Shown here piece by piece: positions 35,100 through 61,298 of a stretch of 61,298 bases of DNA. A program made the translations under genes and the position numbers. The notes beneath the pieces are model-generated. The model ran no database searches. It was not told the origin of the DNA and saw nothing but the letters and a program-made list of their open reading frames with translations. The DNA is from a virus. The stretch is taken from positions 1-61,298 of the IMG/VR virus record IMGVR_UViG_3300010885_047852. One strand, 5' to 3'. The stretch's first letter is position 1. Each line of letters opens with the position of its first letter.

Positions 35100-35828
35100 T
35101 TACGAACCGGCGGGCAGCGTCTGGTAGCCGCAGGCGACGGTGCCGAGGATCGTGTTGTACTGAGCGGCGGAGTAGCCGACCTGCACGTACGGGCTGTTCG
35201 GGATGTAGCCAGCGCCGGGATAGTCGTTCCAGGGGCCGTTCGTGAGAAGCGGGTTGTTGGTGGAAGTACCGGTGAAGGTGACTCGGGCGACGTCGTTCTC
35301 GAACGTACGCGAGCCGGGAGTGAGGCGGACCTTGCCGAAGATGTGGCCGATGAACGACGGGTAGGCGGCGGAAGCGGCCGGCTGCTGGCAATCACCCTGG
35401 CCTTCCACGACGGTCTGGGTGATGACCTCAAGGTACACACCGCTGCTTGGGTTGACGGTGTAGTTCGGCATGGCGTGGCCGATGACCTTGCCGGCGTGGG
35501 GACCGCCAGCGGCACCGAGGATGAGGTCGCCACCGAACAGCAGCTTCAGCATTTCCCAGTCGAAGAAGTAGAACTCGCCCGAGATGTTGTACCGCTTGAT
35601 GCGGGCGTCCTGCTCGTAGGTGAACACCAACTCGCCACAGGCGTTCTTCGGCTCGAAGCGGGTGCCTTCCTCGATGTCGGGTTCGGCACTGAGGGTGGCG
35701 AGGGCGGCGGTCACGTAGCCGCTGTCCGCACCGCCGGTGGGGGTGCAGTCTGCGTCCAACTTTGCGACACGCACGACACATGCGTTCAACTGACCGAGGC
35801 AGACATTGCCAGCAAGGTTCGTAGCCAT
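35100..35828 (-). CDS. Major tail tube protein, 242 aa
   Basis: Forms the tail tube. ATG at 35828 is chosen because GAAAGGATCC lies 7 nt upstream; a longer frame to 35861 is not supported. Resembles actinophage major tail proteins: N-terminal CVVRVAKLDADCTPTGG, a middle FYFFDWEMLKLLFGGDLILG and a long beta-rich remainder. Expression features support a major product: its own hairpin terminator and a GTAGACAAACA motif 56 nt upstream that is shared with the major capsid gene. It comes earlier than usual, before the tail terminator and gp10-like genes. Confidence 0.8.
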   Translation of the reverse strand: MATNLAGNVCLGQLNACVVRVAKLDADCTPTGGADSGYVTAALATLSAEPDIEEGTRFEPKNACGELVFTYEQDARIKRYNISGEFYFFDWEMLKLLFGGDLILGAAGGPHAGKVIGHAMPNYTVNPSSGVYLEVITQTVVEGQGDCQQPAASAAYPSFIGHIFGKVRLTPGSRTFENDVARVTFTGTSTNNPLLTNGPWNDYPGAGYIPNSPYVQVGYSAAQYNTILGTVACGYQTLPAGS

Positions 35829-35883
35829 GAGGGATCCTTTCAACCGAAGGGGAGATCGCACTCATGTTGTTCTTCTACATGCT

Positions 35884-35894: not shown

Positions 35895-35963
35895 GGCATT
35901 GGTAGCGGGGGACCGAGTTGCACGGCCATTTCCGACTGTTGAGATCGGCGTCGTTCTGTTGGA

Positions 35964-36272
35964 CTACCCCGCAGTGGAGCGTTTCAGCCACCCATTTTGT
36001 TCTGCTTGAGCAGGATGATCGTGGATCCATGTGTGGCAGGCACGGCAGACATGGAGACCGTTGTCGATGGTGCCCATCCCTCCGTGGGAGCGACGCAGGA
36101 TATGATGCACATGCGCAGCCGTATTCTGACAGTGAGTGGTGCGGGCTTCGCATTGTCCACCTGACCGAGCGAAGATTGCGTCCCGTGTTGACTGGTCGAA
36201 ATCGGTCTTTGATCGTTTCGCTTTCCGTTTGAACGGTGTCCGTTTCAACGGTGTACGCCGGCTCAATGTCAT
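35964..36272 (-). CDS. HNH endonuclease, 102 aa
   Basis: Basic N-terminus (SRRTPLKRTPFKRKAKR), then RSGGQCEARTTHC, HVHHILRR with the catalytic HH, and NGLHVCRACHTWIHDHP, the zinc-ribbon HNH fold. Metal ligands are the two Cys pairs. It may be a homing-type element placed between the connector and major tail genes, or it may aid packaging as HNH proteins next to terminases do; here it is far from terminase. ATGA overlap with the connector gene. Confidence 0.85.
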   Translation of the reverse strand: MTLSRRTPLKRTPFKRKAKRSKTDFDQSTRDAIFARSGGQCEARTTHCQNTAAHVHHILRRSHGGMGTIDNGLHVCRACHTWIHDHPAQAEQNGWLKRSTAG

Positions 36273-37048
36273 GAACCGGACGGCCCTTCGACTTCAACAA
36301 GGTTCCAGAACTGTTCAAGTTCCGGTGCCCACACCGACGACACCATGTTTGGGCCGTCATACGCATAGACGGACAGGAACCGTGACACCACCGGAATCTG
36401 TTCGTCGCCGTCACGCAACGCTTCAGCACGGGAACGCACCGACAGCGACGCACCCTGGATGTTGGCTGACACCACACCTCGAGGCAGCGACGACGGCTTG
36501 CCTTTCAGATCCTTCAACAGTTCGCAGGTCAACTCGGTGCAAGCCATGCGGGTCAACTTGTCTGGATCACGACCGAACCGGTAGGTGATTTCAAACGTGT
36601 TGATCTGCAACGACGTCTTCTGAAGATCATTTACCGTCGGCCAGCAGCCAGACTTCCGGTACAGGTATTCGTTGTCCAACAGTCCGTACTCTGACTTGTT
36701 CAGTACGACACCGTCGATCATGACCTCAAGCACATCGACGTTCGGGCCACGGAGCGGGATGGTGTCGATGCCACCGAACTGGCGTCGCCAGTCTCGAGTG
36801 GCGAACGGTGATAGATATTCGGCGTTGTCCCACCAGATGCGGTCGTTGCAGAGGGCGACGGGTCGTACGGTGACGGTGCAGATACCGGAGATTCGTCCGC
36901 CGGTGGCGATGGACAGCATGTCCGACGCCTGGTCAATCATCAGTTCGATCAGTTCGACATCTTCGGACGCGTCAAGGTCGCAGCCGCACATCGAGTCAAG
37001 GATGTCGTCTACGGACACGAAAGGTTGGCAGGCGAACCGGGTAGCCAT
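36269..37048 (-). CDS. Head-tail connector (adaptor) protein, 259 aa
   Basis: N-terminal helical part with EDVELIELMIDQASDMLSIAT resembles the gp6/gp15-type adaptor that docks on the portal. A central beta region (GGIDTIPLRGPNVDVLEVMI) and C-terminal helix follow. Cys-rich start (MATRFACQPFVSVDDILDSM, then CGCD). Connector-type proteins share a 'DxxSxxIxxaTGR' pattern and this one reads QASDMLSIATGGR. It is the first head-tail gene after the glycosyltransferase island. Family by motif and place. Confidence 0.7.
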   Translation of the reverse strand: MATRFACQPFVSVDDILDSMCGCDLDASEDVELIELMIDQASDMLSIATGGRISGICTVTVRPVALCNDRIWWDNAEYLSPFATRDWRRQFGGIDTIPLRGPNVDVLEVMIDGVVLNKSEYGLLDNEYLYRKSGCWPTVNDLQKTSLQINTFEITYRFGRDPDKLTRMACTELTCELLKDLKGKPSSLPRGVVSANIQGASLSVRSRAEALRDGDEQIPVVSRFLSVYAYDGPNMVSSVWAPELEQFWNLVEVEGPSGS

Positions 37049-37057: not shown

Positions 37058-38002
37058 TTACTGCTTGCCGAACAGTTGGGCGATAAAGTCTGCGGCCCTC
37101 TGCGCAGCTTGCCCATCCATCGGCCCGTACACCTCTCGCACATGCTGTTGTGCCTGCATAGTCGGGTTGTTCTGAAGAACGTCCCAGAGGTTGAGGGCGA
37201 GAAGTTCCTGTGGTGAATCAACGGTAGGTACACCGTTCGTCCATGTCCAGAATCGGCCACCGTGATTCACATCTTTCCGATACCACGGTGCGTTCATCCA
37301 GACGACAGGCCGGCCTAACGCTAGGAACTCCATCCCGATCGAACTGTTGTCAACAATCAGAATGTTGGCGTTGAGGAACAGTTCGTCCTCGCGTTCAAGG
37401 ACATCCATCCCTGCCTGCCGCAACACATCGTCCAGCAGCCCTCCCCACTTCGGATGGGCATGGCCGAATACGTGGAACCCTTGATCGCGAAATCGTTCGG
37501 CCAGTTCTGGCAGATGGTTGAAGTAGTGATTGATTGCCGATCGTGCTTCAGAACTGATTTGTGCATCCCAATGAAATGCGAAGCAAACAGACTGTTGATG
37601 CAACGGTGCAAAACTGACCCATCGGTCAAGTTTCGGACAGCCGACAGCCATTGACGGCGCAGTCTTCCATCGCATCGCCACGTTGATGTTCGGACAGATG
37701 AATGCCTCAACACCTTGGTGACGGGCACCGCCGCTGGTCGAATAGCCGGGGTTGAGTGCCGATTTCTCGTCGCCGGCATAGCCCTGTCCTGCACCGTGTT
37801 CGACGTAGATCATGCGGTGATGTGGCCGTAATGCTTGGACGTCCTGCCAACTTGCGACCATCGCAATCCTGTTTCGGGGCGGTGGCAGCACAGGAAATCG
37901 GAGGGCGTGGATGTTGCCTTGCATTGATGCTGGCAAGCATTCAAAGATCGGAATCATGTGGTTCTTGTAGTGCTGCATTGACGCAACGACATCAACTTTC
38001 AC
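37058..38002 (-). CDS. CDP-glycerol glycerophosphotransferase-like enzyme, 314 aa
   Basis: Resembles TagF/TarB-type enzymes that transfer glycerol-phosphate (or other polyol-phosphate) from a CDP-activated donor. Seen: MIYVEHGAGQGYAGD, a late FGHAHPKWGG, then NILIVDNSSIGMEFLALGRP and WYRKDVNHGGRFWTW, the family's donor-site region. GTG at 38002 has GAGGTGG just upstream and overlaps the preceding gene by 11 bp. Wall teichoic acid genes of this type are known in hosts; here it belongs to a run of glycosyltransferases in the late region and could put a polyol-phosphate on the virion. Substrate unknown. Confidence 0.7.
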   Translation of the reverse strand: MKVDVVASMQHYKNHMIPIFECLPASMQGNIHALRFPVLPPPRNRIAMVASWQDVQALRPHHRMIYVEHGAGQGYAGDEKSALNPGYSTSGGARHQGVEAFICPNINVAMRWKTAPSMAVGCPKLDRWVSFAPLHQQSVCFAFHWDAQISSEARSAINHYFNHLPELAERFRDQGFHVFGHAHPKWGGLLDDVLRQAGMDVLEREDELFLNANILIVDNSSIGMEFLALGRPVVWMNAPWYRKDVNHGGRFWTWTNGVPTVDSPQELLALNLWDVLQNNPTMQAQQHVREVYGPMDGQAAQRAADFIAQLFGKQ

Positions 38003-39017
38003 AGACCACCTCGAACTGTTGCAGATATTTCTCTCGCCATTCCGACCAGCGTGGCACCATGCTGTACGCATGGTTCATCGCGTTCATCAACCGCTTAGGA
38101 TTGTGAACAAGTTGGTTGATTTCTTGGCCGAGCGTGTAATGGTGAGTATCAGCCATAGTGAGTTGGCCGGACGCGACACGAATCGTTTTGCCTTGCGTGC
38201 ATGGCGAAAGAATCGACGCTAGTTCGCTGTTCGGTGAACAGTTCGGCATCATCACGGCAATTCCTCGAGATGCTGCTTCAAGTGCAGGGAGACAGAGTCC
38301 ACCGTAGCGACGAGGAAGCACAAGGACATGCTGATTGGTATGCATGTCCCACAGATCAGACACCCCTAGGTTCTCCACATGGATAGTCAGGTTCCGTACC
38401 GGCTGAATCTCGGGAAGCGAATACTCCAGCCCGTGAAGGGTGACAGTTGTTGACGGCTGAAGGGCACGCATCGCGTTGATGAAGATGTCGGTGCCGTTGC
38501 GGTCAGCGAACGCCCGTTTGCCGGCGATGTGGTAGACCCGTAACGGTTCACCGGGTTCTGCAGCGGTGCGTTCATGATCTGGCATCGGTACAGGCATGTG
38601 AACACCGGCGGGGAGTGCTGCCAGCCGCCAGGTGGTGGGCCACCACCATTGGTCTGGATCAGCGAAGTGTTCGTAGCCCTCTTGGCCGTGGCGTACAAAC
38701 TCTGGGTTCCCTTGAATGACGGTTTTGACGCCCATTTCGCGTGCCCAGATAGGCAGCGACCAGTCGTATGGGGTTTCTACTGAGAACACGACGTCGAGGC
38801 CGCGCATCCATTCTCGTACCAGTTCCTCGTCAAGTGTGTGCCCTGGAAGGCTGTCGGTGATGGTTGCATTCTGATACCACCATTCACGTACTTCGCAGTC
38901 AGGGTTGGGCATCTTGACGAGAAGCACACGGTCAACCGGCATGTGGTCGTAGAAGTTTTTTGACTGAATGGCGAGACCGCGTGCGTATTCGGCTCGAGCT
39001 ATGAGGCCAATCTTCAT
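37992..39017 (-). CDS. GT4-type glycosyltransferase, 341 aa
   Basis: GT-B fold. Seen: N-terminal MKIGLIARAEYARGLAIQSK, then LDVVFSVETPYDWSLPIWA and the C-terminal donor region with YHIAGKRAFADRNGTDIFI and VLPRRYGGLCLPALEAASRG, where the glycosyltransferase-1 'Y-G-G-x-x-L-P-x-L-E-A' element is clear. NDP-sugar donor and acceptor unknown. It overlaps its neighbours on both sides, so the island is translated as one block. Confidence 0.8.
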   Translation of the reverse strand: MKIGLIARAEYARGLAIQSKNFYDHMPVDRVLLVKMPNPDCEVREWWYQNATITDSLPGHTLDEELVREWMRGLDVVFSVETPYDWSLPIWAREMGVKTVIQGNPEFVRHGQEGYEHFADPDQWWWPTTWRLAALPAGVHMPVPMPDHERTAAEPGEPLRVYHIAGKRAFADRNGTDIFINAMRALQPSTTVTLHGLEYSLPEIQPVRNLTIHVENLGVSDLWDMHTNQHVLVLPRRYGGLCLPALEAASRGIAVMMPNCSPNSELASILSPCTQGKTIRVASGQLTMADTHHYTLGQEINQLVHNPKRLMNAMNHAYSMVPRWSEWREKYLQQFEVVCES

Positions 39018-40687
39018 CGTTGCCGTCCGAAATCCATGTCGAACTTTGGTGCGTCGCCACGACCGTCAAGATGGCCTGACCGGCGGATGTCACCTTCCGG
39101 TTCGTAGATCCAGATCTTCCAGCGGCCCCAGCCGTTACGAGTTGAGGAGCAATCCACCCAGACGCGTCCGTACAGGAAATCTTCGATCATGGTGCGTGAG
39201 TCAAGCGGAATCGGTTCGACCACTTGTTCACGGTAAAAGGTGGTGTCGGCGATATGGGGGCGTTGCCACCATGCTTGAGTACGCCGAAGCCTGACACCGT
39301 TGATGACCTGCGGTTTCGGATCAAGCATCACACCGTAGTGATCAGGATGGATTTCGACGTCCTGATGAAGACGAATGACGTTTGCCATCCCGTTCTCTAC
39401 CTGCTCAAGCAGATCTTCCCACGGGATGTCACCGACGATTGGGGTGTCGTGCTCAACAAACAGAATGTTCGGTGTACGGACATGCTTGAGCAGTTCTCGC
39501 GTCAAGTTTGCTTGATGCCCCCACTCGTTCAACACCACCGGCAGGACGTTGTCCCATTCAAAGTTGCATTTCCAGAGGCACTCACGCACGTAGCGCCGAT
39601 AGTTCGACGCCAACTCTGTCTGCTCTCGGCGCACACCATCGAACCCGACGATGATTTCGCACTCAGGTAGACGTTCACGGATGGATCGGATGGTCTCATC
39701 CAGAATCCATGTGTCGGGATGTGACGGGATAGGTGATGAGGTGATGATCACCGAAATCCTGTCCCGCAGCTTACGCATTGGTAGGAGGTTTGACACGGCG
39801 GCGATGTCATCATGCAACTTGTAGATCTGTCGCCGCTTCCACTGCTGCCACCAGGCGAAACAGACTGCTTGATGGTGTTCCCAGTTCTTCAGCAGGTCAT
39901 CCATCACCTCTTTGGCTTCTGACCACTGGTACACAGTTGGTAGGGGATGTTCGCCGAACACGATTTCCCAGTAGTCGAACTGTGGATCACGGGGCTTGAT
40001 CAGATCCAGCACCGGAATGCAGCCGGCCTCCAGCGCAGCAAGCGGACGGTTCGCATCCAACGTCATCGGCCCAGACGGACACGGAATCAACTTTGCTGAC
40101 ACAGCGTGCTGTGCATACTCGGCAGAAGGCACACCGCCCATGAACCGGTCAGTCTTGATCAGATGACCGTTCGCCCGGCGACGAATCGCCGATACACATT
40201 CCTGGCGGCGAACATTGGTGACCTGTCCACCGAAGAACCAGTCCAATGGCTTCTCCATGTAGAGCGCTTTGTGGTCGACCAGTTCTTCACGCGTCTTCGG
40301 ATACCAGCCGCCAGGAATCTTGTTCGACAGCGGCCAATGTTCCGGTAGCGGATTCATTACCCAGATGCGACGGGTGTTCGTGGTCGGGATCATGCCCCAC
40401 GGGAAGTCCCAGCATTCGTTGCCGGTGATGATGACAAGCGACCAGGCCATCTTGTCCAGTTCGGCAAGGATCCATTCGGCATCGTGAGCGTTGCCCATTC
40501 CCGAGAAGCAGACAACACCACCATCATGGTGAGGAAACTCGTCCCGTACGTCGTGATGCTGGAAGGTGAACCCGTACTGGGGTTGCCAGAGCCGATTGTT
40601 GAGGATCTCCTCAAGGAAGCCGCAGTCGGCGTAGCCGCGTGTGATGAAGTCGTCACGCCGTGACACCCAGAACACATCGATGTTCAC
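39014..40687 (-). CDS. Two-domain glycosyltransferase, 557 aa
   Basis: Residues ~1-305 look like an exostosin/GT47-type or related GT-B domain (VFWVSRRDDFITRGYADCGF; IPCPSGPMTLDANRPLAALE). From residue ~309 a GT-A/GT2-like domain starts: ISVIITSSPIPSHP, ETIRSIRERLPECEIIVGFD, and NILFVEHDTPIVGDIPWED, in which EHD is a DxD-type metal site. So one chain probably carries two transferases that act in sequence. GTG at 40687 overlaps the previous stop (GTGA). Acceptor unknown. Confidence 0.7.
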   Translation of the reverse strand: MNIDVFWVSRRDDFITRGYADCGFLEEILNNRLWQPQYGFTFQHHDVRDEFPHHDGGVVCFSGMGNAHDAEWILAELDKMAWSLVIITGNECWDFPWGMIPTTNTRRIWVMNPLPEHWPLSNKIPGGWYPKTREELVDHKALYMEKPLDWFFGGQVTNVRRQECVSAIRRRANGHLIKTDRFMGGVPSAEYAQHAVSAKLIPCPSGPMTLDANRPLAALEAGCIPVLDLIKPRDPQFDYWEIVFGEHPLPTVYQWSEAKEVMDDLLKNWEHHQAVCFAWWQQWKRRQIYKLHDDIAAVSNLLPMRKLRDRISVIITSSPIPSHPDTWILDETIRSIRERLPECEIIVGFDGVRREQTELASNYRRYVRECLWKCNFEWDNVLPVVLNEWGHQANLTRELLKHVRTPNILFVEHDTPIVGDIPWEDLLEQVENGMANVIRLHQDVEIHPDHYGVMLDPKPQVINGVRLRRTQAWWQRPHIADTTFYREQVVEPIPLDSRTMIEDFLYGRVWVDCSSTRNGWGRWKIWIYEPEGDIRRSGHLDGRGDAPKFDMDFGRQR

Positions 40688-41295
40688 TGCATCACCAGCC
40701 AACGCCACTCATCGTGGATTCGGTTCGGAACGGTTGTCTTCTTCAACTTGAGGCCGGCATCTTTGATAAAGGCCCGCATGTTGGCAGCGGTCTCGGGATG
40801 ACAGACAAATACATCCTCATCAAGACCTTCGACGTATTGGATGACTGCGACACCGTCGTCGGTGAGACACTTACGGATCGAGGTGAGGTAGGACTGCTTG
40901 GTGTGGGCGTCAAGATGCTGGAACACTTCGACGGAGTAGATGAGATCGGCAGTCACATCGTCGGGAAGGGCTGTACCGTCACAGACTTTCGTCATGACGT
41001 TATTCGGCCTGTCATCTACCCCCAGAGAAATCATTGCTTCTGAGATGTCAACGGCCACAAAATTGGTGTCAGGGAACATTCGGGCAAGGCGATTGATGAT
41101 CCGCCCCGGTCCAGCACCCAACTCGACCACCGTGATACCGGGTCTGATGAAGCTGCGAAGGTTCTCAAGTATCGCGTCGATGGTTGGGGCTACCTGTTCG
41201 GCGGTTCCGTCACCACCCCACGCAAGGGTGCGGTATCGCTCATCGGCGAACGCTTCGTTGTTCCACCAGTTTCGCTGTGTTGCCGAGTTTGTCAT
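40684..41295 (-). CDS. Class I SAM methyltransferase, 203 aa
   Basis: Seen: VVELGAGPGRIINRLARMF (motif I), NFVAVDISEAMISLG (motif II acid), DLIYSVEVFQHLD (post-motif). Type-11/25-like small-molecule methyltransferase. Located inside the glycosyltransferase island, so a sugar hydroxyl or carboxyl is the likely target (inference). ATG at 41295 overlaps the preceding stop (ATGA). Confidence 0.8.
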   Translation of the reverse strand: MTNSATQRNWWNNEAFADERYRTLAWGGDGTAEQVAPTIDAILENLRSFIRPGITVVELGAGPGRIINRLARMFPDTNFVAVDISEAMISLGVDDRPNNVMTKVCDGTALPDDVTADLIYSVEVFQHLDAHTKQSYLTSIRKCLTDDGVAVIQYVEGLDEDVFVCHPETAANMRAFIKDAGLKLKKTTVPNRIHDEWRWLVMQ

Positions 41296-41948
41296 TCCTG
41301 CTCCGTGATTTCGTCGTCCCATTGTCCACCGGTGTACGGCGAGCGGGGCCAGTATTGGATCAAGTTGCTGTCATCCATGAACGGTCGATTGGCGTACGTT
41401 TCCCATTCTTGTCCTGGCATACATCCCCATTTGTGTTCAAAGTAGGAATGGATCTGTTCGTTGTCGACAGGGATGCGGGCTTTGCGTAGAGCGTGGGCCA
41501 TGCCGGCGTCTTCGACGTCGATGGCGTATGCGCCCCACGGTGCGTCGGGTTTGACCCGGTACATGCGGATTGCGTAGTCGATGTCCTCGAGGTAGCCGGG
41601 GAAGAAGTTTTCATCGAAGCGGCCGGCTGTTTCGATTGCTTCTCTGCTGAAGGCGATGAGGTGCCAGCCGTAGGTGCCGAGAGCTGAAACGACACGGTGG
41701 TCGGGTCGGCTTTCAAGAAGTTGAATGAAGTCTTGTCCACCGGGTTTCCCGAATCGGATTGCGGCGGACATGACGATGAGCCAGTCAGCGTCGTTGGCAC
41801 GCATCAGGTCGATGCCGATGTTCCATGAGCGAGGTACGCCACGGTTGTTGAGGCTGTTGTCGATGGTGTGGATGTCAATTTTGGCGCGTCTGACTGCTTC
41901 GTGTTTCCAGTTCCAGATCACCCACGGCATCACACAGGTGTACTTCAC
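41292..41948 (-). CDS. GT-A type glycosyltransferase, copy 2 of a tandem pair, 218 aa
   Basis: GTG at 41948 overlaps the previous stop (GTGA). Seen: NRGVPRSWNIGIDLM, ADWLIVMSAAIRFGKPG, YGWHLIAFSREAIE and GRFDENFFPGYLEDIDYAIR, the last being the acceptor-side acidic motif typical of GT2 transferases. About 40% of positions look identical to the next gene upstream, so the two arose by tandem duplication. The usual DxD appears as the SAA segment variant, so catalysis needs checking. Confidence 0.7.
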   Translation of the reverse strand: MKYTCVMPWVIWNWKHEAVRRAKIDIHTIDNSLNNRGVPRSWNIGIDLMRANDADWLIVMSAAIRFGKPGGQDFIQLLESRPDHRVVSALGTYGWHLIAFSREAIETAGRFDENFFPGYLEDIDYAIRMYRVKPDAPWGAYAIDVEDAGMAHALRKARIPVDNEQIHSYFEHKWGCMPGQEWETYANRPFMDDSNLIQYWPRSPYTGGQWDDEITEQE

Positions 41949-42613
41949 AGCGGTTCTGGTGCTTTCGTGTTCCAGTCTGCACCGTTGAAGTGCGGCCAGA
42001 AGTTGATGTTGTTCGTTCGAGTGTTGAACGGCTGGTTCCAATACTCATCGAATTGCGAACCTGGGAGCGCACCCCATTTACGCATCCAATAGTTGAGCAG
42101 CCGATAGCCGTGCTGCGGTTGGAGACCGCCAACTTTGATTGAGTGTGCCATGCCACGATCTTCAAGATCGCATGGGTAGCCGCCCCACAGCAGGTCGGGT
42201 GACATCTTGTGGATACGTACCGACAGGTCGTTGTCGTCGTACCCGTATGGGGTGAAGTTCTCATCCCAGCGACCCATCTTTGCGACAACGTCAGGTCGAA
42301 AAGCGACAAGATGCCAGCCGTATGTGTCGGAGCAGGAGATGACACCGTGGTTTTCGTGTTCGACAAGGTTGTCGATGAAATCAAGACCCCCGGCCGGCCC
42401 GAACCGGACTGCAGCGGACATGATGATGAACCATTCGTCGGGTTGACGCTCATCTAGCCCGAGGTTGTGGGAACGCATGATCCCACGGTTCGTGACCGTG
42501 TTGTCGATGGTGAGAACTCTGCCTTCTTCCTGCAAACGGCAAGAAGAAATACAGCTGTCTGCCCAGTCCTTTACCATGAACGGTAGAACGACAAGATATT
42601 TCGGGCGTGTCAT
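41945..42613 (-). CDS. GT-A type glycosyltransferase, copy 1 of a tandem pair, 222 aa
   Basis: ATG at 42613 overlaps the FkbM stop (ATGA). It shares the segment order of its downstream paralog: NRGIMRSHNLGLD, WFIIMSAAVRFGPAGGLDFI, YGWHLVAFRPDVV, GRWDENFTPYGYDDNDLSVR, ED.GMAHS and KWG.LPG. The duplication with divergence suggests two different sugar additions. Small for the family, with a near-minimal catalytic domain. Confidence 0.7.
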   Translation of the reverse strand: MTRPKYLVVLPFMVKDWADSCISSCRLQEEGRVLTIDNTVTNRGIMRSHNLGLDERQPDEWFIIMSAAVRFGPAGGLDFIDNLVEHENHGVISCSDTYGWHLVAFRPDVVAKMGRWDENFTPYGYDDNDLSVRIHKMSPDLLWGGYPCDLEDRGMAHSIKVGGLQPQHGYRLLNYWMRKWGALPGSQFDEYWNQPFNTRTNNINFWPHFNGADWNTKAPEPL

Positions 42614-43347
42614 GGCAGGAAAAGCCAATACTCCTCTGAACCTTCGCCCAACTTCTCACCGGTGTAGCCGCACGCCTTCATGTGACGAAGCAAATCGTCC
42701 AACGTGTGGTTGTACCAGTCCTTCATGATCGGCTGATGTACCGATACCCACATGATCGGCTTCTTTTCCTTCAGCAGACTCGTGGCACCGTAAAGCGCCA
42801 TCAGTTCAGCGCCCTCGATGTCCATCACAATGGCATCAGGGATGTAGCCGACATGCTTGACCATTGTGTCCAGCGACAGGCACGGCGTGTGATGTGCCTG
42901 CTGGGCAAGGTGACGGAACCCAAAGTCGGGGATGATCTCACCGATCGAGCAGGCCGGCCATCCATCTTCCTGCGGGAAGATGCTTGCGTACCTGCCGTCT
43001 TGAAGTTCTGGGATTAGCGCGTCAGAGAACGATGCGAATCCTGCAAAGTAGCCTTGCAGTGGACCGCAGTCGTTGGCTTCCCAGTGGGCACGGAGTTGCG
43101 GCCAGACCGGCGGTGACGGTTCGACGGGGATGACGGTGCCGGCGGGACCGACCCACATCTTGTAGAGCGCAGTGAAGTCACCGCACTCTGCACCAAGGTC
43201 GTAGACGACCATGCCTTCGGTGATCAGTTCAGCGCACGAGTCCACTCGTTCCTTTTCCCAGCCGGGACGCTTGAGATGAAAATCGTGTCGGTCGGGCGTC
43301 AGGTTGATTGCCCACTTGTCGTTGATCTTGGACGGGATGGTGCTCAT
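42610..43347 (-). CDS. FkbM-family methyltransferase, 245 aa
   Basis: Seen: GMVVYDLGAECGDFTALYKM (motif I), GTVIPVEPSPPVWPQLRAHW, and the FkbM-type DAIVMDIEGAELMALYGA. FkbM enzymes O-methylate sugars and polyketides. ATG at 43347 follows GCGAGGAAGCC and overlaps the fusion gene's stop (ATGA). Together with the SAM methyltransferase at 40.7 kb it gives the island two or three methylation steps. Confidence 0.82.
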   Translation of the reverse strand: MSTIPSKINDKWAINLTPDRHDFHLKRPGWEKERVDSCAELITEGMVVYDLGAECGDFTALYKMWVGPAGTVIPVEPSPPVWPQLRAHWEANDCGPLQGYFAGFASFSDALIPELQDGRYASIFPQEDGWPACSIGEIIPDFGFRHLAQQAHHTPCLSLDTMVKHVGYIPDAIVMDIEGAELMALYGATSLLKEKKPIMWVSVHQPIMKDWYNHTLDDLLRHMKACGYTGEKLGEGSEEYWLFLP

Positions 43348-44888
43348 GGCTTCCTCGCGTTGCACAGCAGGTTGGGGTGGGCATTGGTGGCGATGTTGAT
43401 GTCCACGAATCCTGCTTTCTGCAAAGCTGTTCGCAGAGTGAATTCGGAGAACATTGCGTAGTGGGCGTTCCACCGGAAATCTTGATCGTCACCAACATAG
43501 ATGCCGTCGTGGTGTCCGCCAAGGAGTCGCCATGCTGCACCGGCCATCGGATGCTGCGGCAGGCCGGCCGGTAGACGATCTACGAGCCGGTCAGAGTCAC
43601 CGACATACCAGCGCATGATGGTGTCTGCGTCGGGGACTTGGATGTAGATCCTTCCACCTGGCTGAAGGACACGGAACCAGTCGTCAAGAATCTTCGGTGT
43701 GTCCCAGTAGGAAAGATGTTCTAGAACGTCAACGGCACGGATTTCGCCGACGGAACCTGCAGGGAGATCTAGCGGCCATGCGGTGCCGACGATGTCTACG
43801 TTCGGAGCGTCAGGATTGATGTCCAGATGTGTGAATCCGGGTGTCGGGTGGAAACCGGATCCAAGTTCCAGACGTTCAATGGTACGTACCGGTTCCGGTT
43901 TGGCCCTGATGCCCATCGTTGCGAACGCTTTCGCAAGACGGTGACGGTAGGTGTGATTGCGAGCGACATGTTCTTGTCCTTGTCGGGCGATGCGACGCGC
44001 CTCGGCAGGGTTCGCCAAGTAGTGGTCGACGGTGGAAGCGATCCATTCTAAAGCTGCTTCTTCCGTTAGACCCTCATTGGGATGCTGGTAGTAGACGATG
44101 TGTTTGCCGTTGGTGAGGAACCGGTCGATGTGTGGGACATAGGGGGCGATCATGAAACCGCCGCGTCCTACTGTCTCGAAGTATCGGTCAGTCCAGTATT
44201 CGATGTGGCCGGGGAGATGGAGTGAGTCACCGACAACGACGCGTGCGGTCGCGTAAAGGTCATTGAGGTTCTGTCCTCGAGTTGGGCCTTCGGGCATGTC
44301 GCCACCGAAACGGCGGAATCTGTTGCCGTAGCGGCGGCGGAGGAAGTTGATCAGGTTGGGACGCCACGGCCATTCGTCGTGGTAGCCCTCGGAGCCGACG
44401 AAGACGACGTCGTAGTCGTAGAAATCGTTGAATCTGCCAGGGATACATTCGTCGGATACGACAGCAGGCGAGATCCAATGATGGTTGATGCCTTTGTCGG
44501 CGAAGAACACCGCCGAATTCGGGTCACCGTCGGGCGTGAAGACGTATTCGGTACGCCAGAAAGGATCGTCAAGGATCCCGGCTTCACGTTTCAACCCGAC
44601 GTACAAGTCAAGGTGGTAGGAGCAGGTTTTGATGCCGTTCTGCTCCAGTCGCCGCCACATCGCTGTTGCTTCGGCAGGTAGACCCCAGGTGCGGGTGAAA
44701 ATGACAACGGACGGCCGGCTGGTAAGACACCATTCCTCGAACCGTTTGAGGAACGAGAACTTGTCGGCACGGTTGTCAGGTTCCTGCCAGCGTTCCACCT
44801 TGTAGCCGAGCGATTCCATCTCTCGAGCAAGATGAACTTCGGTACACCATGAGGCAGTGAAGTTCCCGATGTAGGCAACCGTCGTCAC
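43344..44888 (-). CDS. Glycosyltransferase-methyltransferase fusion, 514 aa
   Basis: Residues ~1-330 form a GT-B domain resembling CgeB-type glycosyltransferases (TVAYIGNFTASWCTEVHLAR; YDVVFVGSEGYHDEWPWRPN; YWTDRYFETVGRGGFMIAPY). From residue ~339 a class I methyltransferase begins: RLELGSGFHPTPGFTHLDIN, IRAVDVLEHLSYWDT, LQPGGRIYIQVPD. GTG at 44888 has GGAGGCGAAGAA upstream and overlaps the previous stop. A single chain could glycosylate and then methylate the same site; whether the fusion is common is unknown to me. Confidence 0.75.
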   Translation of the reverse strand: MTTVAYIGNFTASWCTEVHLAREMESLGYKVERWQEPDNRADKFSFLKRFEEWCLTSRPSVVIFTRTWGLPAEATAMWRRLEQNGIKTCSYHLDLYVGLKREAGILDDPFWRTEYVFTPDGDPNSAVFFADKGINHHWISPAVVSDECIPGRFNDFYDYDVVFVGSEGYHDEWPWRPNLINFLRRRYGNRFRRFGGDMPEGPTRGQNLNDLYATARVVVGDSLHLPGHIEYWTDRYFETVGRGGFMIAPYVPHIDRFLTNGKHIVYYQHPNEGLTEEAALEWIASTVDHYLANPAEARRIARQGQEHVARNHTYRHRLAKAFATMGIRAKPEPVRTIERLELGSGFHPTPGFTHLDINPDAPNVDIVGTAWPLDLPAGSVGEIRAVDVLEHLSYWDTPKILDDWFRVLQPGGRIYIQVPDADTIMRWYVGDSDRLVDRLPAGLPQHPMAGAAWRLLGGHHDGIYVGDDQDFRWNAHYAMFSEFTLRTALQKAGFVDINIATNAHPNLLCNARKP

Positions 44889-45040
44889 TTCTTCGCCTCC
44901 GACTCTTGGATGATGCCGATCTGGGCACCAGCAGCTTCGGGTGTGGCATGACATCCGACGACGGAACCGTCAGCGATCTTTACGACCGCATACGGTCGAT
45001 CTTCTGGACAGTCCGACGATTTCGCAACCTTGTAGGGCAT
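44885..45040 (-). CDS. Small conserved-looking phage protein, 51 aa
   Basis: MPYKVAKSSDCP, then YAVVKIADGSVVGCHATPEA and a helical end. Short proteins of this form (a beta-hairpin then a 'GCHATxxxA' helix) appear in many actinophage structural regions and may be part of the capsid. No ribosome site; a TAATAG at 45050-45055 lies 9 nt ahead. GTGA overlap with the fusion gene. It is the last gene before the inverted cassette. Confidence 0.6.
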   Translation of the reverse strand: MPYKVAKSSDCPEDRPYAVVKIADGSVVGCHATPEAAGAQIGIIQESEAKK

Positions 45041-45130: not shown

Positions 45131-45502
45131 ATGGCAACCGGTATCGCCTCAGCCCAAGCCGACGTCGCACTCAACGCGATCCGCACCGACACCCCATACA
45201 TCCAACTCCATGTCGGCGACCCCGGTGCAGCCGGCACCGCCAACAAAGCAACCGAAGTCACCCGCAAGGCTGTCACGTTCGGTGTCGCCTCAGGTGGTGT
45301 GATGACGAACTCTGCTCAGGTGCAATGGACGAGCATTGCGGGCAGTCAGGATGCCACCCATTTCTCGATCTGGAACACTGCGACCGACGGGACCGGCACG
45401 TTCAAGTATTCGGGCACCATCACCGCAAATGCCTATACGGCTGGTGATACCTACACGGCTGCGATCGGTGGTATCACGCTCACTATCACCGGCGCATCGT
45501 GA
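45131..45502 (+). CDS. Virion (fibre or decoration) protein, 123 aa
   Basis: First gene of the inverted cassette. ATG at 45131 follows TGAAAGGAACAACG. Contains YIQLHVGDPGAAGTANKATE, VTFGVASGGVMTNSA and a beta-rich Ser/Thr-rich end, a fold seen in actinophage tail/head fibre-type proteins. Divergent from the minus-strand 51-aa gene; the 90 bp between them must contain both promoters (a weak TTAGGT/TACATC pair on the plus strand). Located beside the glycosyltransferase island. Confidence 0.65.
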   Translation: MATGIASAQADVALNAIRTDTPYIQLHVGDPGAAGTANKATEVTRKAVTFGVASGGVMTNSAQVQWTSIAGSQDATHFSIWNTATDGTGTFKYSGTITANAYTAGDTYTAAIGGITLTITGAS

Positions 45503-45511
45503 GGTTCATAA

Positions 45512-46315: not shown

Positions 46316-46316
46316 T

Positions 46317-47144: not shown

Positions 47145-47147
47145 CCG

Positions 47148-47924
47148 ATGAGTCTGCTGCTTCTCTTTCAGACATCCGGTCCCGCCGCCACCGTCGTCAC
47201 CTTCACCGCTGACGGCCTCACCAGCAGCAGCGCAACAGCCACACTCACCGTAGACCACCCTGCGGTCCTCACTGGCACTACAACCTCCACAGGCACCCTC
47301 ACTGCGACCGTAGAGCACCCTGTAACCGGCCAAGGCACCACCAGCAGCACAGGCACCCTCACAGCCGTCGTAGAACACCCTGCAACCCTTGCAGGCACAA
47401 CCACAACCGCCGGCACAGCCTCATTCGCCCCCGACCGGCCATTCACCGGCAGCGGAACCAGCAGCACCTCAGGTACAGCAACCTTCCAGGCTGAGAAACC
47501 GTTCACCGCTAGCGGAACTAGCTCCTCGAGCGGCACCGCCACATTCGGTGTCGCCCATGAGGTAACCGTAGCCGGCCCGACCGGTACATCCGGTACAGCA
47601 ACCATCGGAGTCAACCACACCGCCGTATTTGCTGGCGCGTCCACAACCGCTGCCACAGCATTCTTCAGTGTCGGCCTTGCCGTGATGGCGGGCACCACCA
47701 ACACGACCGGTGCAAGCACGTTCACGGTTACCCGCTACTTCACAGCCAACGGCACCACCATCACCGTCGGCACCTACACCGAGAAGACATACCCGTTGAA
47801 GGTGTGGACCGGCACAGCGTGGGTGGCGAAACCGATCAAAAAATGGAACGGATCAGCCTGGGTGAAAGCGACGAACGTCAGGGTCTATGACCCTGTTCTT
47901 CACCGCTGGACAAACATCAGTTAG
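47148..47924 (+). CDS. Thr/Ser-rich 20-residue-repeat virion protein, 258 aa
   Basis: Residues 21-200 are nine repeats of 20 residues with pattern G-T-[TS]-[TS]-[TS]-[TS]-G-T-[AL]-[TS]-[FA]-x-x-[VE]-[HKR]-P-[VF]-T. About 35-40% of the repeat is Thr or Ser, a mucin-like composition that suits O-glycosylation. Residues 215-245 hold two WTG/WNG units (VWTGTAWV, KKWNGSAWV). The short hydrophobic start (MSLLLLFQTSG) is not a full signal peptide. The 3' end overlaps the convergent fibre gene by 8 bp. It is a candidate acceptor for the neighbouring glycosyltransferases and a probable surface fibre. Confidence 0.75.
   Translation: MSLLLLFQTSGPAATVVTFTADGLTSSSATATLTVDHPAVLTGTTTSTGTLTATVEHPVTGQGTTSSTGTLTAVVEHPATLAGTTTTAGTASFAPDRPFTGSGTSSTSGTATFQAEKPFTASGTSSSSGTATFGVAHEVTVAGPTGTSGTATIGVNHTAVFAGASTTAATAFFSVGLAVMAGTTNTTGASTFTVTRYFTANGTTITVGTYTEKTYPLKVWTGTAWVAKPIKKWNGSAWVKATNVRVYDPVLHRWTNIS
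47208..47747 (+). repeat. Nine 60-bp coding repeats
   Basis: The DNA repeats in register with the 20-residue units of the protein at 47148; ACAGGCACCCTCAC recurs in adjacent units. Units 2-7 are exactly 60 bp; one residue is lost after unit 7. Such arrays can expand or contract by slippage, so copy number may differ between isolates. Confidence 0.85.
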
Positions 47925-50475: not shown

Positions 50476-52092
50476 TCAGGACTGGTAGAGGTATTCGTCA
50501 CGGCCCAAGCAGTTGACCAACTGGTCGTCCACCTGGATACCGGTGTAGCAGACGGGGATGTGAAGGATGTGAGCGGGGCACGAGGTGGTGTTCACGATGC
50601 CCTCGAAGTTCTCGAAGAAGAACGTGAACTGGTTCTTGCTGTTGCTCGTGTTGTCACGGTACAGACCGTTGCCGGTCACACCGATCGCCAGTTCGCCACG
50701 GTCCATGAGGGCGAACTTGCCGGGGGGAGCGATCAGGATGTCGATCGCCTGCGGCAGCAGGTTCAGCGTGTTACCGGTGGCGACAGCGGGAAGAGCCTGC
50801 GCCCAGGTCGGGGTGTCGATGAAGAAGTGGACGTTCACACCGGCGTCACGGAACATTGCCTCGACCTCAGCGTCGCTGATGACTCGCTGCGGAGTGCCGT
50901 TGGTGGTGCGACGACGGAACATGTCCATCTTGATGCCGGTGAGGGCGTAGCGAGGCAACCATGCCTCAAGCGGGCCGGTGATATCCCAACGCTGGGTTTC
51001 CTGGTAGAGAGCGATGTAGTTGAGGATGGTCGACAGGACCGAGGTGGTTGCGCCGTAGCCGAGGAGCGGTGCGTCGATCATGGTGGCACCGGTGCCCATC
51101 GCGTTGAGGAGCTGCTGCTCGGCGAGGCGGGCGTGGGCGGCGGCGAGGCGGTTCAGCCATGCCTCCACCAACTCGGGGTACGACATGGCGAGCATGTTCT
51201 TGATGGTGATGCACCGGTATACGCCGTACATGGTGTACTCCGTCGGGGAGCCACAGGTGATGGTCTGGCAGGTGTCCTTGGTGGCGTTGGCGTCAGCGTC
51301 GTTGGTTGCGGTCCACACGTTCACGCCGGTGGTGATCTGCGACAGCGTCGGCGACGGCATGATCGACACCTTCATGCGAGGTGCCTGGAACTGCGGAAGG
51401 CTGTTGAACACAGGCCGGCGGACGGTGTTCATGCAGGCCAGCCCGTAGTACGGGACGGCGGGGGCGCAGAGGGCGGCGGTGAGTTCGTCGGTCTCGAACT
51501 TTGCCATGTTGAAGTTGAAGTCGTCGGTGAGGATGCGATCCTCGGGGTAGTTGGCGACGATGCGGGCCACCTCGAACCGTTCTGAGGTGTTGCCACGGAT
51601 GCTCGAGGACTTCTCGGCGGCGGCGAGGCCAAGTTCACGCCACGAGTCGAACGACTCGCCAGCACGCTTGCCACCGACACCGTCGACGGCCTTGAGGTGG
51701 CTGATGGGAGCCAGAGCGGTCGACTTCACGACTGCGGCCGGCTGACCGAAACTGGTCTTCACCTTCTGCTTCGTGGCAGCTTCGACAGCGACCGGCTCCT
51801 CTTCCTCAGCGTCGTCTTCGGTGGCCTCTTCGGCCTCGGCGACTTTGGGTTCGGCGTCGGCGTCGTCGGTCTCAAGGGCGGCACGGCGGGCGGCGTCGGC
51901 ATCCTTGTCGGCGGCGAGGGCGATGGCCTCGTCACGGGTGGCGAGGAACTGGGCGACCTCTGCTCGCTCATCGGCGGTCAGATCGGTCTTGGCAAGAGTT
52001 GCCAGTGCCGCAGCCTTGATGTCGCGACCGAGAGCGCGAAGATCGCTGGCCGAGAGGGTATTGAGGGTTTCGGGAACCTGGGGCCACGACAT
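50476..52092 (-). CDS. Major capsid protein (HK97 fold), 538 aa
   Basis: ATG at 52092 is chosen because CAGGAGGCACC stands 9 nt ahead; a longer frame to 52170 is not supported. Residues ~10-115 are an acidic, Ala-rich helical delta domain (scaffold-like, e.g. EEATEDDAEEEEP), likely removed by the upstream protease. The body follows the HK97-type order, with KVSIMPSPTLSQITTGVNVW, YRCITIKNMLAMSYPELVEA, HARLAEQQLLNAMGTGATMI and the late VTGNGLYRDNTSNSKNQ. The gene is followed by a hairpin terminator and preceded by the GTAGACAAACA motif. Large for the family because of the N-terminal domain. Confidence 0.88.
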   Translation of the reverse strand: MSWPQVPETLNTLSASDLRALGRDIKAAALATLAKTDLTADERAEVAQFLATRDEAIALAADKDADAARRAALETDDADAEPKVAEAEEATEDDAEEEEPVAVEAATKQKVKTSFGQPAAVVKSTALAPISHLKAVDGVGGKRAGESFDSWRELGLAAAEKSSSIRGNTSERFEVARIVANYPEDRILTDDFNFNMAKFETDELTAALCAPAVPYYGLACMNTVRRPVFNSLPQFQAPRMKVSIMPSPTLSQITTGVNVWTATNDADANATKDTCQTITCGSPTEYTMYGVYRCITIKNMLAMSYPELVEAWLNRLAAAHARLAEQQLLNAMGTGATMIDAPLLGYGATTSVLSTILNYIALYQETQRWDITGPLEAWLPRYALTGIKMDMFRRRTTNGTPQRVISDAEVEAMFRDAGVNVHFFIDTPTWAQALPAVATGNTLNLLPQAIDILIAPPGKFALMDRGELAIGVTGNGLYRDNTSNSKNQFTFFFENFEGIVNTTSCPAHILHIPVCYTGIQVDDQLVNCLGRDEYLYQS

Positions 52093-52150
52093 TGCGGGGT
52101 GCCTCCTGTGTAGCGGTACGAACGGAGAGAAGTTTCCTGATGTAGGCGAC

Positions 52151-52161
52151 TGTTTGTCTAC
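52151..52161 (-). promoter_or_regulatory. GTAGACAAACA element upstream of the major capsid gene
   Basis: Same 11 bases as before the major tail gene, here 59 nt before the start codon and overlapping a 7-bp inverted repeat (GATGTAG at 52139-52145 and CTACATC at 52158-52164). Candidate late promoter part or mRNA stabiliser. Seen twice only, both before the two most abundant virion proteins. Confidence 0.5.
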
Positions 52162-52162
52162 A

Positions 52163-54220
52163 TCACTCATCTGTCATAAGACGGACAAGGATGGTTGCGA
52201 CGTCGTCCGAAACTGCGACCGGTTCGGTCGTTGCGGTCGTGGCATCGTCGGGTTGTGCAGCCATGTCAGGCATTCCGCTGTCCTCCGATTCGGAATCTTC
52301 TGTGATGGGTCCGCCGGTGATCCATGCGTCGCAGGTTCGTAAAGCGGCACATTTGAAATCAAAGATTTCGCAGTAGCCAAGATCTGCTGCTTCGACGGTT
52401 GCTTCGCCTTCACCACCAAGTCCCTTGTTGATGCAGTCCAGCATGACCGGTGTCTGAATGAATGCTGCGCAGTTACCGCACAGCGACTTCTTCACTTCAT
52501 CAATGGTCACCGACCAGCGTTCTGCCTTTGCAGTCCAGAACGCTTCGTTCGAATCCTCAGGGTTCAGCGGCCCGTAGGTTGCGATGTCGATCGCTTCCTG
52601 CCGGTTCTCAAGATTGACGGCGATGTCCTGTGTTGCCTTCGGGCAAGCGCCTTCCATCTCACCTTCGTCGTCGTCTTTTTCTTCGCCACCGATGATGACC
52701 TTGATTTCCATTTCGTCACCGATAGCCGAATTCGCGTCAAGACGGTCAGAGGTGCGCTTCGCCCACGACCACCCGGTGTTACCGCCCCACAACGCCCATG
52801 CAACACGCCCAGGGCTGGGGTAGCCGGTTTCACCTGGACGCCAGCCGGTGGCTTGCTTGTCGGACTGGTGCCGGTTGAAGAAATCACGCATCCGACGCAC
52901 AGTTTCCGGTGAGCGAACCTCTCCGTTTGCCATGCTGCGGGCACGCGCAACGGTGGCGGGTTCCAAACCGTCACCGGCATGACCGTCAGCAACCCACTGC
53001 AGCCCTCGACGGGCTTCGCGTTGCGCACCAACCGGAGGAACAAGGCTGACATTCGCAGCCATTTCGCTGCATGACGGAAATGACGCCACCAGTTCGGCGA
53101 CACCTTCGTCGGAAGTGACGAACTGGAAATCGGAAGCTGCGAAACCCGAACCGGGAACGTCAAATCCTTCAGCGTTGACCGACACGATCGCCTTCAGTTT
53201 GCCACCGACCCAATGCCCAGAGATACGGCTCGCTCGAGCGGCGTAGATGACGTCGTCATGGATACCGGGGCGGACGATACCGGAGATCCACGGCCCGAAA
53301 CGGCCTTCGGTGATGCGAACATCAGCCCATGCGTTCTCAATACCACCGTACGCATCTTCAAGGCTGTCTACGCCGTTCGATGGGCGATGTCCGCCGTAAG
53401 CGAAGATGGGGCCGGTTTCCACGATGCCACGGTCGGTGAGCACACCAGGCTTGTTGAACGATGCGTAGTTGTCTGCCTGACGGGGAATGCGTACACAGCG
53501 GGCAGCGATGCCGTCATGGCAGGATTCCCACAGACCGAGATGGCCGTACACCTTGTTGTCGGCATCCACGATGATCTTCTGCGGCTTGTCGGCCTCAGGG
53601 ATGTAGAACGAGTCGAAGTCCTGTACCGCCGACGCTGAGGCGACGATTTCTTCTTCGTCGTCGGGAAGGATGATTGACACCGACCATTCTTCGGGTTCGC
53701 ACACCAACTCTTCGTCACCCAGCGACGCCATCACCTCTTCGTCGGACAGTTCTGCGTACGCCTCAGCGAACGCCGGCTTTGCCACACCAGTGGTGGCAGC
53801 GAGCCGATACTTGGAGAACTTGACAATCCTGCTGTCGGAATGTTCGTCGTACTCGAAGGACGCTTCGACGTCGGCGAGATCAACAGAGTTCCCACGCATT
53901 GCCTTGGTTTTGATGAGCCGTGCGTGCCGGCGACCGTATTCGTCGTCCAGAAGATAGCCACGGCCCGACATCACACCCTTGTCAGGATCGACGGTCACCT
54001 CAAAGAGAGCACCGGTGACATCTGCGCCGTCGTGTCCACCGGCGGACAGTTTGAACTGGCCGAGGATCGGCAATGGCAGGTCACGCGTTGCTGCACCGGA
54101 CGACTGGAGAAGTCGACCGTCGCCTGTCTTCTTGTCCAACATCGCAAGGACAGGAAAGTTGACGGCGGTCAAGAAACCGTCGGGCATTTCGTCGGGCATT
54201 TTGCCAAAGGTGGTGATCAT
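52163..54220 (-). CDS. Capsid maturation protease with C-terminal Cys-rich domains, 685 aa
   Basis: Residues ~1-165 resemble the prohead protease of actinophages (MPDGFLTAVNFPVLAMLDKK, DLPLPILGQFKLSAGGHDGA, KTKAMRGNSVDLADVE). Residues ~400-490 hold a phage domain with GLQWVADGHAGDGLEP, MRDFFNRHQSDK and VAWALWGGNTGWSWAKR. Residues ~545-655 are Cys-rich (ACPKATQDI, LCGNCAAFIQTP, GYCEIFDFKCAALRTCDAW), possibly a metal-binding capsid module. It is unusual for all three to be in one chain. GGGAGCATC precedes the ATG. Right before the major capsid gene, as expected. Confidence 0.75.
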   Translation of the reverse strand: MITTFGKMPDEMPDGFLTAVNFPVLAMLDKKTGDGRLLQSSGAATRDLPLPILGQFKLSAGGHDGADVTGALFEVTVDPDKGVMSGRGYLLDDEYGRRHARLIKTKAMRGNSVDLADVEASFEYDEHSDSRIVKFSKYRLAATTGVAKPAFAEAYAELSDEEVMASLGDEELVCEPEEWSVSIILPDDEEEIVASASAVQDFDSFYIPEADKPQKIIVDADNKVYGHLGLWESCHDGIAARCVRIPRQADNYASFNKPGVLTDRGIVETGPIFAYGGHRPSNGVDSLEDAYGGIENAWADVRITEGRFGPWISGIVRPGIHDDVIYAARASRISGHWVGGKLKAIVSVNAEGFDVPGSGFAASDFQFVTSDEGVAELVASFPSCSEMAANVSLVPPVGAQREARRGLQWVADGHAGDGLEPATVARARSMANGEVRSPETVRRMRDFFNRHQSDKQATGWRPGETGYPSPGRVAWALWGGNTGWSWAKRTSDRLDANSAIGDEMEIKVIIGGEEKDDDEGEMEGACPKATQDIAVNLENRQEAIDIATYGPLNPEDSNEAFWTAKAERWSVTIDEVKKSLCGNCAAFIQTPVMLDCINKGLGGEGEATVEAADLGYCEIFDFKCAALRTCDAWITGGPITEDSESEDSGMPDMAAQPDDATTATTEPVAVSDDVATILVRLMTDE

Positions 54221-61216: not shown

Positions 61217-61298
61217 CCCCACACCAAACCACAATCCCCACCCCCCCCCCCCCCACACCACAAACAAAACCCCACCCCACCACCACACCCCCACCACA
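61217..61298. other. C/A-only tract at the right end
   Basis: The last ~80 bases are nearly free of G and T on the plus strand, with a C run near 61235-61250. No coding frame. It would form the G/T-rich leader of the methyltransferase gene. The same composition continues in the first ~90 bases of the window. Confidence 0.6.

Follow-up and report, generated by a model that had tools for sequence, protein, structure and literature searches.

An eight-gene operon among the virion genes of an uncultured bacterial virus is a predicted virion-glycan cassette

The window, a 61,298-nt stretch from an uncultured bacterial virus (IMGVR_UViG_3300010885_047852), carries an operon of eight genes, g8 to g1, on the minus strand from 44888 down to 37058. 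We interpret it, with a probability of roughly 0.77, as a virion-glycan cassette that would build a methylated and perhaps phosphate-containing chain on the phage particle (Table 1). This reading draws on directly established features: which genes are present, how they are coupled, where they lie among the virion genes, an order conserved between loci, discordant identities and catalytic motifs. Virion-glycan synthesis had been proposed in an initial annotation; a glycan-building set in the late region is indeed present, its virion role is judged by position and the polyol-phosphate substrate stays a prediction. Glycosylation of phage particles is known from a few mycobacteriophages, where it has been linked to antibody shielding.

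Table 1. Cassette genes and neighbouring virion genes of the window
Feature	Coordinates	Strand	Evidence
Major tail protein	35100..35861	-	phrog_792 1.7e-20
Head-tail adaptor	36269..37048	-	phrog_783 3.9e-28
g1, TagF/TarL-family (CDP-polyol phosphotransferase-like) GT-B enzyme, last cassette gene	37058..38002	-	PF04464
g2, GT4-type glycosyltransferase	37992..39017	-	PF13692/PF00534 about 1e-5
g3, bifunctional glycosyltransferase, N-terminal GT47/exostosin-like and C-terminal GT-A	39014..40687	-	profile, model, Foldseek
g4, class-I SAM methyltransferase	40684..41295	-	PF13649 1.2e-13 and others
g5, GT-A-like glycosyltransferase, tandem copy 2	41292..41948	-	PHROG galactosyl transferase 8.6e-9
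g6, GT-A-like glycosyltransferase, tandem copy 1	41945..42613	-	PHROG galactosyl transferase 9e-7
g7, FkbM-type methyltransferase	42610..43347	-	PF05050 9e-9
g8, glycosyltransferase (Glyco_trans_1_2 family) and class-I SAM methyltransferase fusion, first cassette gene	43344..44888	-	PF13524 8.8e-22, PF13489 6e-8
Head-fibre-like gene (gp80/phrog_240), divergent neighbour	45131..45502	+	PF23140 1.8e-15, phrog_240 4.9e-21
258-aa Thr/Ser-rich (34%) repeat protein	47148..47924	+	composition
Major capsid protein	50476..52170	-	phrog_777 1.7e-39

Gene starts were refined from ribosome-binding sites and overlaps. All eight genes called in the initial annotation are present and overlapping, but its upper bound of 45040 moved to 44888 after refinement; g8 starts with GTG, with GGAGG upstream. 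Neighbouring genes share four bases (ATGA/GTGA) at six of the seven junctions and 11 bases at the remaining one, a layout of tight translational coupling. The head-tail adaptor gene begins 9 bp after the g1 stop and is co-directional, so that the cassette reads in the late direction together with the connector and tail genes. The neighbouring fibre genes (45131-47924), however, run on the plus strand, and the head genes, which read leftward, end convergently at ~47.9 kb; the capsid operon therefore does not simply run on into the cassette. Its earlier placement between fibre/capsid genes and the connector, in late direction, is thus correct towards the connector and needs amendment on the other side. 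Promoter and terminator scans returned fewer sites than shuffled sequences, and the promoter scan gave no site supporting late expression; the position of the cassette suggests that it is expressed late.

Pfam and PHROG searches and an alignment of g5 with g6 agree with the earlier calls of a glycosyltransferase (GT)-methyltransferase fusion, an FkbM methyltransferase, a tandem GT-A pair and a SAM methyltransferase. GT domains are found in g8, g6, g5, g3 (two) and g2, and Pfam places SAM-methyltransferase domains in g8, g7 and g4, matching the three methylation domains claimed before. The g7 match to PF05050 exceeds the family cut-off and the g7 profile matches the solved FkbM structure 2py6 (E 1.4e-7); the enzyme probably acts in sugar O-methylation. 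The tandem copies g5 and g6 are 39% identical, and g6 apparently has SAA in place of the usual DXD in the alignment. Neither g3, g5 nor g6 gave a significant Pfam match, and a PDB sequence search with the profile built on g8 (GTw) gave no match.

Structure prediction and searches, with models made for g1 and g3, upheld the domain calls, including that of a two-domain transferase: profile and model both assign two GT domains to g3. The g3 profile gave a partial match to the GT47 structures 8q8i/8avq/8asa (E 5e-4), and the nearest solved structures to the N-terminal domain are GT47 entries including AO75L, which we take to be a chlorovirus protein. Foldseek with the g3 model (pLDDT 90.0) ranked EXT1 first, followed by ppGalNAc-T, RmlT and TarS; the EXT1 match, with a TM of 0.31 across the whole length, speaks for layout and fold class only. 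The domain order appears to be that of the exostosin EXT1, and E-H-D is invariant in the GT-A domain. Relatives of g3 in the viral scan were found with an alignment, a single-protein query alone giving none.

The call of g2 as a GT4 transferase is borne out by its Pfam matches, and the protein carries a conserved PRRYGGLCLPxxEA motif. g1 had been described as a CDP-glycerol-type phosphotransferase; score, profile and a His pair place it in the TagF/TarL-type family, with a polyol-phosphate substrate as a prediction. We considered whether virion glycosylation might be the correct function but g1 a common sugar transferase or an epimerase of UDP-sugars, yielding a glycan without phosphate. The Glyphos_transf (PF04464) score is marginal (22.3 bits vs a cut-off of 22.1), the proteins scanned included none for CDP-polyol synthesis, and Foldseek with the g1 model (pLDDT 89.7; TagF TMq 0.67) placed UDP-GlcNAc 2-epimerases as near as TagF. 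Because the fold search cannot separate TagF from UDP-GlcNAc 2-epimerase, motif evidence was used instead. H183 of g1 aligns with TagF H584, while H69-G70 sits in an EHG motif, vs H444 of TagF in WHG, and is equated with it by motif only; both His residues are invariant in 29 homologues and the SS motif is largely kept. At the catalytic-His motif, hexose-phosphate transferases have QHG and other GT-B enzymes QYA (PMC11666461). These motifs argue against a phosphate-free glycan, as does the sequence profile, which ranks Cps3D, TarL (both at 1e-4) and TagF ahead of all other enzyme families; we regard that alternative as serious although, on balance, unlikely. With both TagF catalytic His conserved, a polyol-phosphate step by g1 is plausible. 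TagF-like capsule polymerases and wall-teichoic acid enzymes (PF04464) share the His pair, SS motif and GT-B fold with g1, but g1 is a soluble single domain in a virion-gene operon, without a TPR domain or export genes. In three other loci (L089, L096 and L099) g1 homologues are fused to a second domain that we read as GT8-like, resembling the two-activity layout of the TagF-like capsule polymerases.

No hydrophobic segment of transmembrane strength occurs in the eight cassette proteins (maximum KD19 1.35) and no polymer-export gene is among the eight genes, which fits cytoplasmic protein modification and not a host envelope polymer. The cassette could in principle alter the host cell surface, by receptor masking or serotype conversion that spares progeny from rebinding debris or excludes rivals; GT4, FkbM and TagF-like families are typical of envelope polysaccharide loci, and in phiRKBJ001 a GT and an FkbM gene lie directly behind the tailspike gene. 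However, phage serotype-conversion systems normally employ membrane GTs, and the membrane GT or flippase of Gtr-like sets has no counterpart in the cassette. The operon also holds no other membrane protein and no polyprenyl-phosphate GT, and it sits inside virion genes in different phages, so we judge a host-surface role to be improbable. Phage GTs can also modify DNA, for example in T-even phages (PMC9614988), and the window encodes a C5 cytosine methyltransferase, which would suit glycosylation of phage DNA bases (hypermodification). We give this very little credence: no hydroxymethylase or thymidylate-synthase-like gene was detected among the window proteins scanned, which included part of the small genes, known base-modification sets do not resemble this combination of GTs, phosphotransferase and FkbM, and the genes lie among late virion genes.

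Under the favoured reading of virion glycosylation, soluble cytoplasmic enzymes would assemble a short glycan on new particles late in infection, with host nucleotide sugars and SAM as donors and a capsid, tail-tube or head-fibre protein as the likely acceptor. In the order of action that we infer, the g8 GT and the tandem pair g6/g5 would probably start or extend the chain, exostosin-like g3 and the GT4 enzyme g2 would extend it, the methyltransferase domains would cap or modify its sugars, and g1 would add polyol-phosphate (or hexose-phosphate), either at the chain end or as a link. By analogy, the major capsid protein, as in mycobacteriophages, and the major tail protein are candidate acceptors; the head-fibre-like gene product is a possible acceptor or surface protein, and the 258-aa repeat protein a speculative acceptor. 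The latter agrees with the earlier remark that Thr/Ser-rich surface proteins lie next door, but there is no general enrichment beside cassettes. Across cassette loci the mean S+T fraction was 0.135 and 0.117 for the genes nearest upstream and downstream, respectively, against 0.136 for far genes; adjacent genes equal the background, and Ser/Thr-rich neighbours were rejected as a general cassette mark.

Three or more cassette gene kinds occur in each of 52 non-redundant loci; homologues of every gene are found together among these loci, mostly in the same order, a recurrence that puts the cassette far beyond chance. The order GT(+MT), FkbM, two-domain GT, GT4, TagF-like is strongly kept, a GT precedes the TagF-like gene in 23 of 23 cases, and the GTw profile matches 50 of the 52 loci. 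The window alone has the full set of eight kinds; shorter versions occur in dozens of further unstudied phages, with gene order mostly the same. The best-populated PHROG families among neighbours are capsid, portal, terminase, adaptor, major tail and tape measure (tape measure common to 15 of 41 loci, adaptor to 10). One locus (L001) has cassette parts between a minor head gene and capsid genes, and Virus Rctr41k has a g1 homologue only, between capsid/protease and head-morphogenesis genes. Compared with its nearest kin, the front half of the window cassette is divergent while the back half tracks the tail gene; such discordant sequence identities point to exchange of parts by recombination, as in capsule loci. 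Variable content and seemingly exchanged parts might also be expected of moron cargo serving host fitness and lying in the late region by chance. That reading is highly unlikely given the same place beside connector/capsid genes in many phages, the strong conservation of order and coupling, and the lack of an integrase among the window proteins scanned, in line with the earlier statement that this is not a moron's position. Two queried cassette families had no relative in 84,980 prokaryote species genomes (GTDB contigs) at the sensitivity of a pattern search, phage records contained no near-identical DNA, and tblastn with g3, g6 and g7 gave no match in them.

The set had also been considered new, which is overstated, because Corndogvirus and Che8 already pair virion glycosylation with methylation genes. 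In Corndogvirus (cluster O mycobacteriophages; Krili served as stand-in for comparisons), gp35-gp38 encode an O-methyltransferase and three GTs and lie within the head block, flanked by portal and protease and reading in the same direction, a setting like that of the cassette. However, this set has four genes with GTs of other families and is largely unrelated to the cassette: the FkbM, exostosin-like and TagF-like profiles had no match in it, the one link being a weak GT-A similarity to g5/g6. The four Corndog proteins were detected in infected cells and proposed as capsid modifiers (PMC4351075), and gp38 and Che8 gp110 are described as essential for capsid glycosylation in a passage of PMC12363180 that cites Freeman 2023. 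Cassette profiles did not match these proven enzymes (Che8 gp110 and the Krili homologue of Corndog gp38), with only weak GT-A matches to Che8 gp109 and Krili gp34; the GT Krili gp35 is a relative of gp110, which is PF01755-type. Che8 (cluster F), for which capsid glycosylation is reported, resembles the window in its three GT genes gp108-gp110, including the GT-MT fusion gp108, but these lie at the right genome end, away from virion genes, and are non-homologous save for gp109. True homologues adjoin virion genes (tailspike) in the Streptomyces phages Dryad and phiRKBJ001 (GTw 361 bits, FkbM 61 bits), although that cluster comprises a GT, one unassigned gene and FkbM, genes of the g3, GT4 and TagF-like kinds being absent from the neighbours tested. 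In the chlorovirus PBCV-1, A064R is a GT-GT-MT protein that builds the methylated end of the virus's own N-glycan (PMC9614988). A064R and A061L, a fusion and a further methyltransferase, thus parallel the cassette, but in a eukaryotic virus and with other enzyme families. We know of no operon in the PBCV-1 glycan machinery comparable to the cassette. The novelty lies in the enzyme set, in how large and how modularly conserved it is, in the TagF-like and exostosin-like members, and in the recombination signature.

With modular content, kept order and recombining parts, the cassette may be to particles what a small O-antigen or capsule locus is to cells, and related phages should consequently differ in their surface glycans. 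More tentatively, and with rather less than even confidence, we propose that many uncultured phages carry coats of methylated phospho-glycan (teichoic-acid-like, with polyol- or hexose-phosphate) made by interchangeable cassettes, so that virion 'serotype' would change by recombination in environments without antibody selection. With a cassette family that is distinct, larger and widespread among environmental phages, the question of why virions are glycosylated outside animals becomes testable; possible reasons are protection in adsorption or from proteases, mimicry of the host, or evasion of binding proteins that are secreted or sit on the cell surface. The soluble, apparently virus-specific GTs, methyltransferases and TagF-like transferase are, in addition, a resource for glycoengineering.

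Gene, junction and domain analysis confirmed the eight genes of the candidate virion-glycan synthesis system that the initial annotation had placed at 37058-45040. They form a minus-strand cassette, named g8 to g1 in transcription order, with its start moved to 44888. Consecutive genes overlap throughout, by 4 bases (ATGA/GTGA) at six of the seven junctions and by 11 bases at the other, and 9 bp separate the end of g1 from the head-tail adaptor gene. In G+C and third-position G+C the cassette falls inside or close to the range of the window's virion genes, and no membrane-strength hydrophobic segment was found in any of the eight proteins.

The 61,298-base IMG/VR record is complete in the window; a terminal repeat was looked for and none was found. 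Gene content (portal, protease, major capsid protein, adaptor, major tail protein, terminase and a 2232-aa tape measure protein) identifies a tailed phage, and an actinobacterial host is likely because the capsid protein distantly resembles those of Gordonia, Microbacterium and Arthrobacter phages (23-30% identity among the matches listed). The fibre genes described as adjoining the cassette are present next door but on the opposite strand, in an island of head-fibre-like and repeat proteins with a minus-strand virion block on either side; the island's last gene, ending at ∼47.92 kb, is convergent with a collagen-like fibre gene. The Thr/Ser-rich neighbor noted earlier also exists, but such proteins were not generally enriched near cassettes across loci. 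The tRNA-Leu gene overlaps the end of an HNH endonuclease gene (35964-36272).

Features of the window and of related loci on other viral contigs
Feature	Sequence	Position	Strand	Remark
Eight-gene cassette	window	44888 to 37058	-	starts refined
Plus-strand island	window	45131-47924	+	right of cassette; first gene gp80-type head-fibre gene
Thr/Ser-rich protein gene	window	47148-47924	+	S+T 34%
tRNA-Leu (CAA) gene	window	35900-35973	-	inside virion region
C5 cytosine DNA methyltransferase gene	window	59804-61297	-	right end
Small SLT-type transglycosylase domain protein	window	9977-10516	+	rightward gene block at left end of window
g1 homolog alone	KX853513.1 (L005, Virus Rctr41k)	19971-20939		directly after SU10-like adaptor gene
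g1 homolog fused to second domain	L089	4791-6665		
g1 homolog fused to second domain	L096	3093-4943		
g1 homolog fused to second domain	L099	9896-11791		

The first gene, g8, joins a glycosyltransferase (GT; its family is termed GTw; Glyco_trans_1_2, 8.8e-22) to a class-I methyltransferase (Methyltransf_23, 6e-8); g7 is an FkbM enzyme, g4 a class-I methyltransferase and g2 GT4-like. The tandem GT-A-like enzymes g6 and g5 are 39% identical and share a conserved block, GRFDENF...D-x-D-x-x-x-R. Both carry SAA at the usual DXD site; in the alignment of their homologs the Ser of SAA (S66) is invariant where a metal-binding DXD is expected, so the active site may be altered or work without metal. 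No Pfam match was found for g3, but the N-terminal half matches GT47 exostosin structures (5e-4, 21-sequence profile), and the confident predicted model (pLDDT 90.0) matches EXT1 best; polypeptide GalNAc-transferases, RmlT and TarS follow for the C-terminal GT-A half. Whole-length TM-scores are low, and the layout and fold class are therefore supported rather than close kinship.

The TagF-like g1 lies just above the PF04464 cut-off, and a search with its 29-sequence profile gave Cps3D and TarL at 1e-4 and a weak match to TagF. In the alignment to TagF, H183 falls exactly on H584, and an EHG motif (HG invariant) occupies the place of the TagF WHG, which contains the base H444 (TagF residue roles, PMC11666461). 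Fold alone did not separate TagF from UDP-GlcNAc 2-epimerases. From motif and family evidence, g1 would plausibly perform a phosphate step. In Rctr41k the g1 homolog has capsid/protease genes on one side and head-morphogenesis genes on the other, and no adjacent gene is annotated as a GT. In the fusions of L089, L096 and L099 the second domain looks GT8-type (YIDADTEF and LNSGV motifs), although that of L089 had no Pfam match; TagF-like capsule polymerases have a similar two-activity layout.

Alignment-based scans of viral contigs found 72 loci for the g8 GT, 25 for g1, 7 for g3 and 15 for g5/g6, and when all loci were annotated with profiles of the eight genes, the same kinds appeared side by side. 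In the 52 non-redundant loci that hold three or more kinds, GTw (23/23), GT4 (23/23), FkbM (20/20) and g3 (12/12) lie upstream of the TagF-like gene and GTw precedes GT-A genes in 16/16; other pairs are looser (GTw before GT4 in 36/45). All eight kinds occur together only in the window. Within four genes per side at 40 loci, the most populated PHROG families on the upstream side were major head protein, adaptor, terminase, portal and protease, and those on the downstream side were adaptor, major tail protein, neck protein and tape measure. Compared directly, 15 of 41 loci had a member of the window's tape-measure family near the cassette, and 10 had its adaptor there. The cassette, whole or in part, occurs in different phages: the L001 copy lies between minor head and capsid genes, and Streptomyces phages have GTw and FkbM after the tailspike. 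The gene after the L001 g3 homolog (11847-12644) looks like a polysaccharide pyruvyltransferase, another decoration enzyme. Short exact peptide patterns detected no g3 or GTw relatives in 84,980 prokaryote species genomes, an absence that, with such patterns, is no proof. No description of the cassette family was found in the open-licence literature searched.

Compared with its nearest kin (L079, L081 and L093), the window shows 58-62% identity in the major tail protein and 47-54% in g2 and g1, and 32-34% in GTw, 31-34% in FkbM and 32-36% in g3; among themselves these loci share 55-60%, 39-52% and 46-54% for the latter three. Among the loci tabulated, the closest g3 and FkbM are those of L103/L104 (g3 45%; FkbM 43% to L103), whose capsid protein is 25% identical to the window's. 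These identities would be explained most simply if the front part of the cassette had been exchanged, the break falling between g3 and g2, and if the methyltransferase domain of g8 and the GT-A pair had been gained. Middle-gene exchange in capsule and O-antigen loci is similar.

The closest functional precedent is Corndog, in which the portal and protease genes enclose an O-methyltransferase and GTs that were detected in infected cells and have been proposed to modify the capsid (PMC4351075); Krili, a Corndogvirus, has the same arrangement. A passage in PMC12363180, citing Freeman 2023, reports Corndog gp38 and Che8 gp110 as essential for capsid glycosylation, and Che8 gp108 is a GT-methyltransferase fusion. 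As judged from sequence, the best-supported reading is that the soluble cassette enzymes would use host nucleotide sugars and SAM to build on virion proteins a glycan that is methylated and may carry phosphate. Given these mycobacteriophage precedents, the kind of system is already known, but the enzymes here are almost all different, a weak GT-A similarity being the only link.
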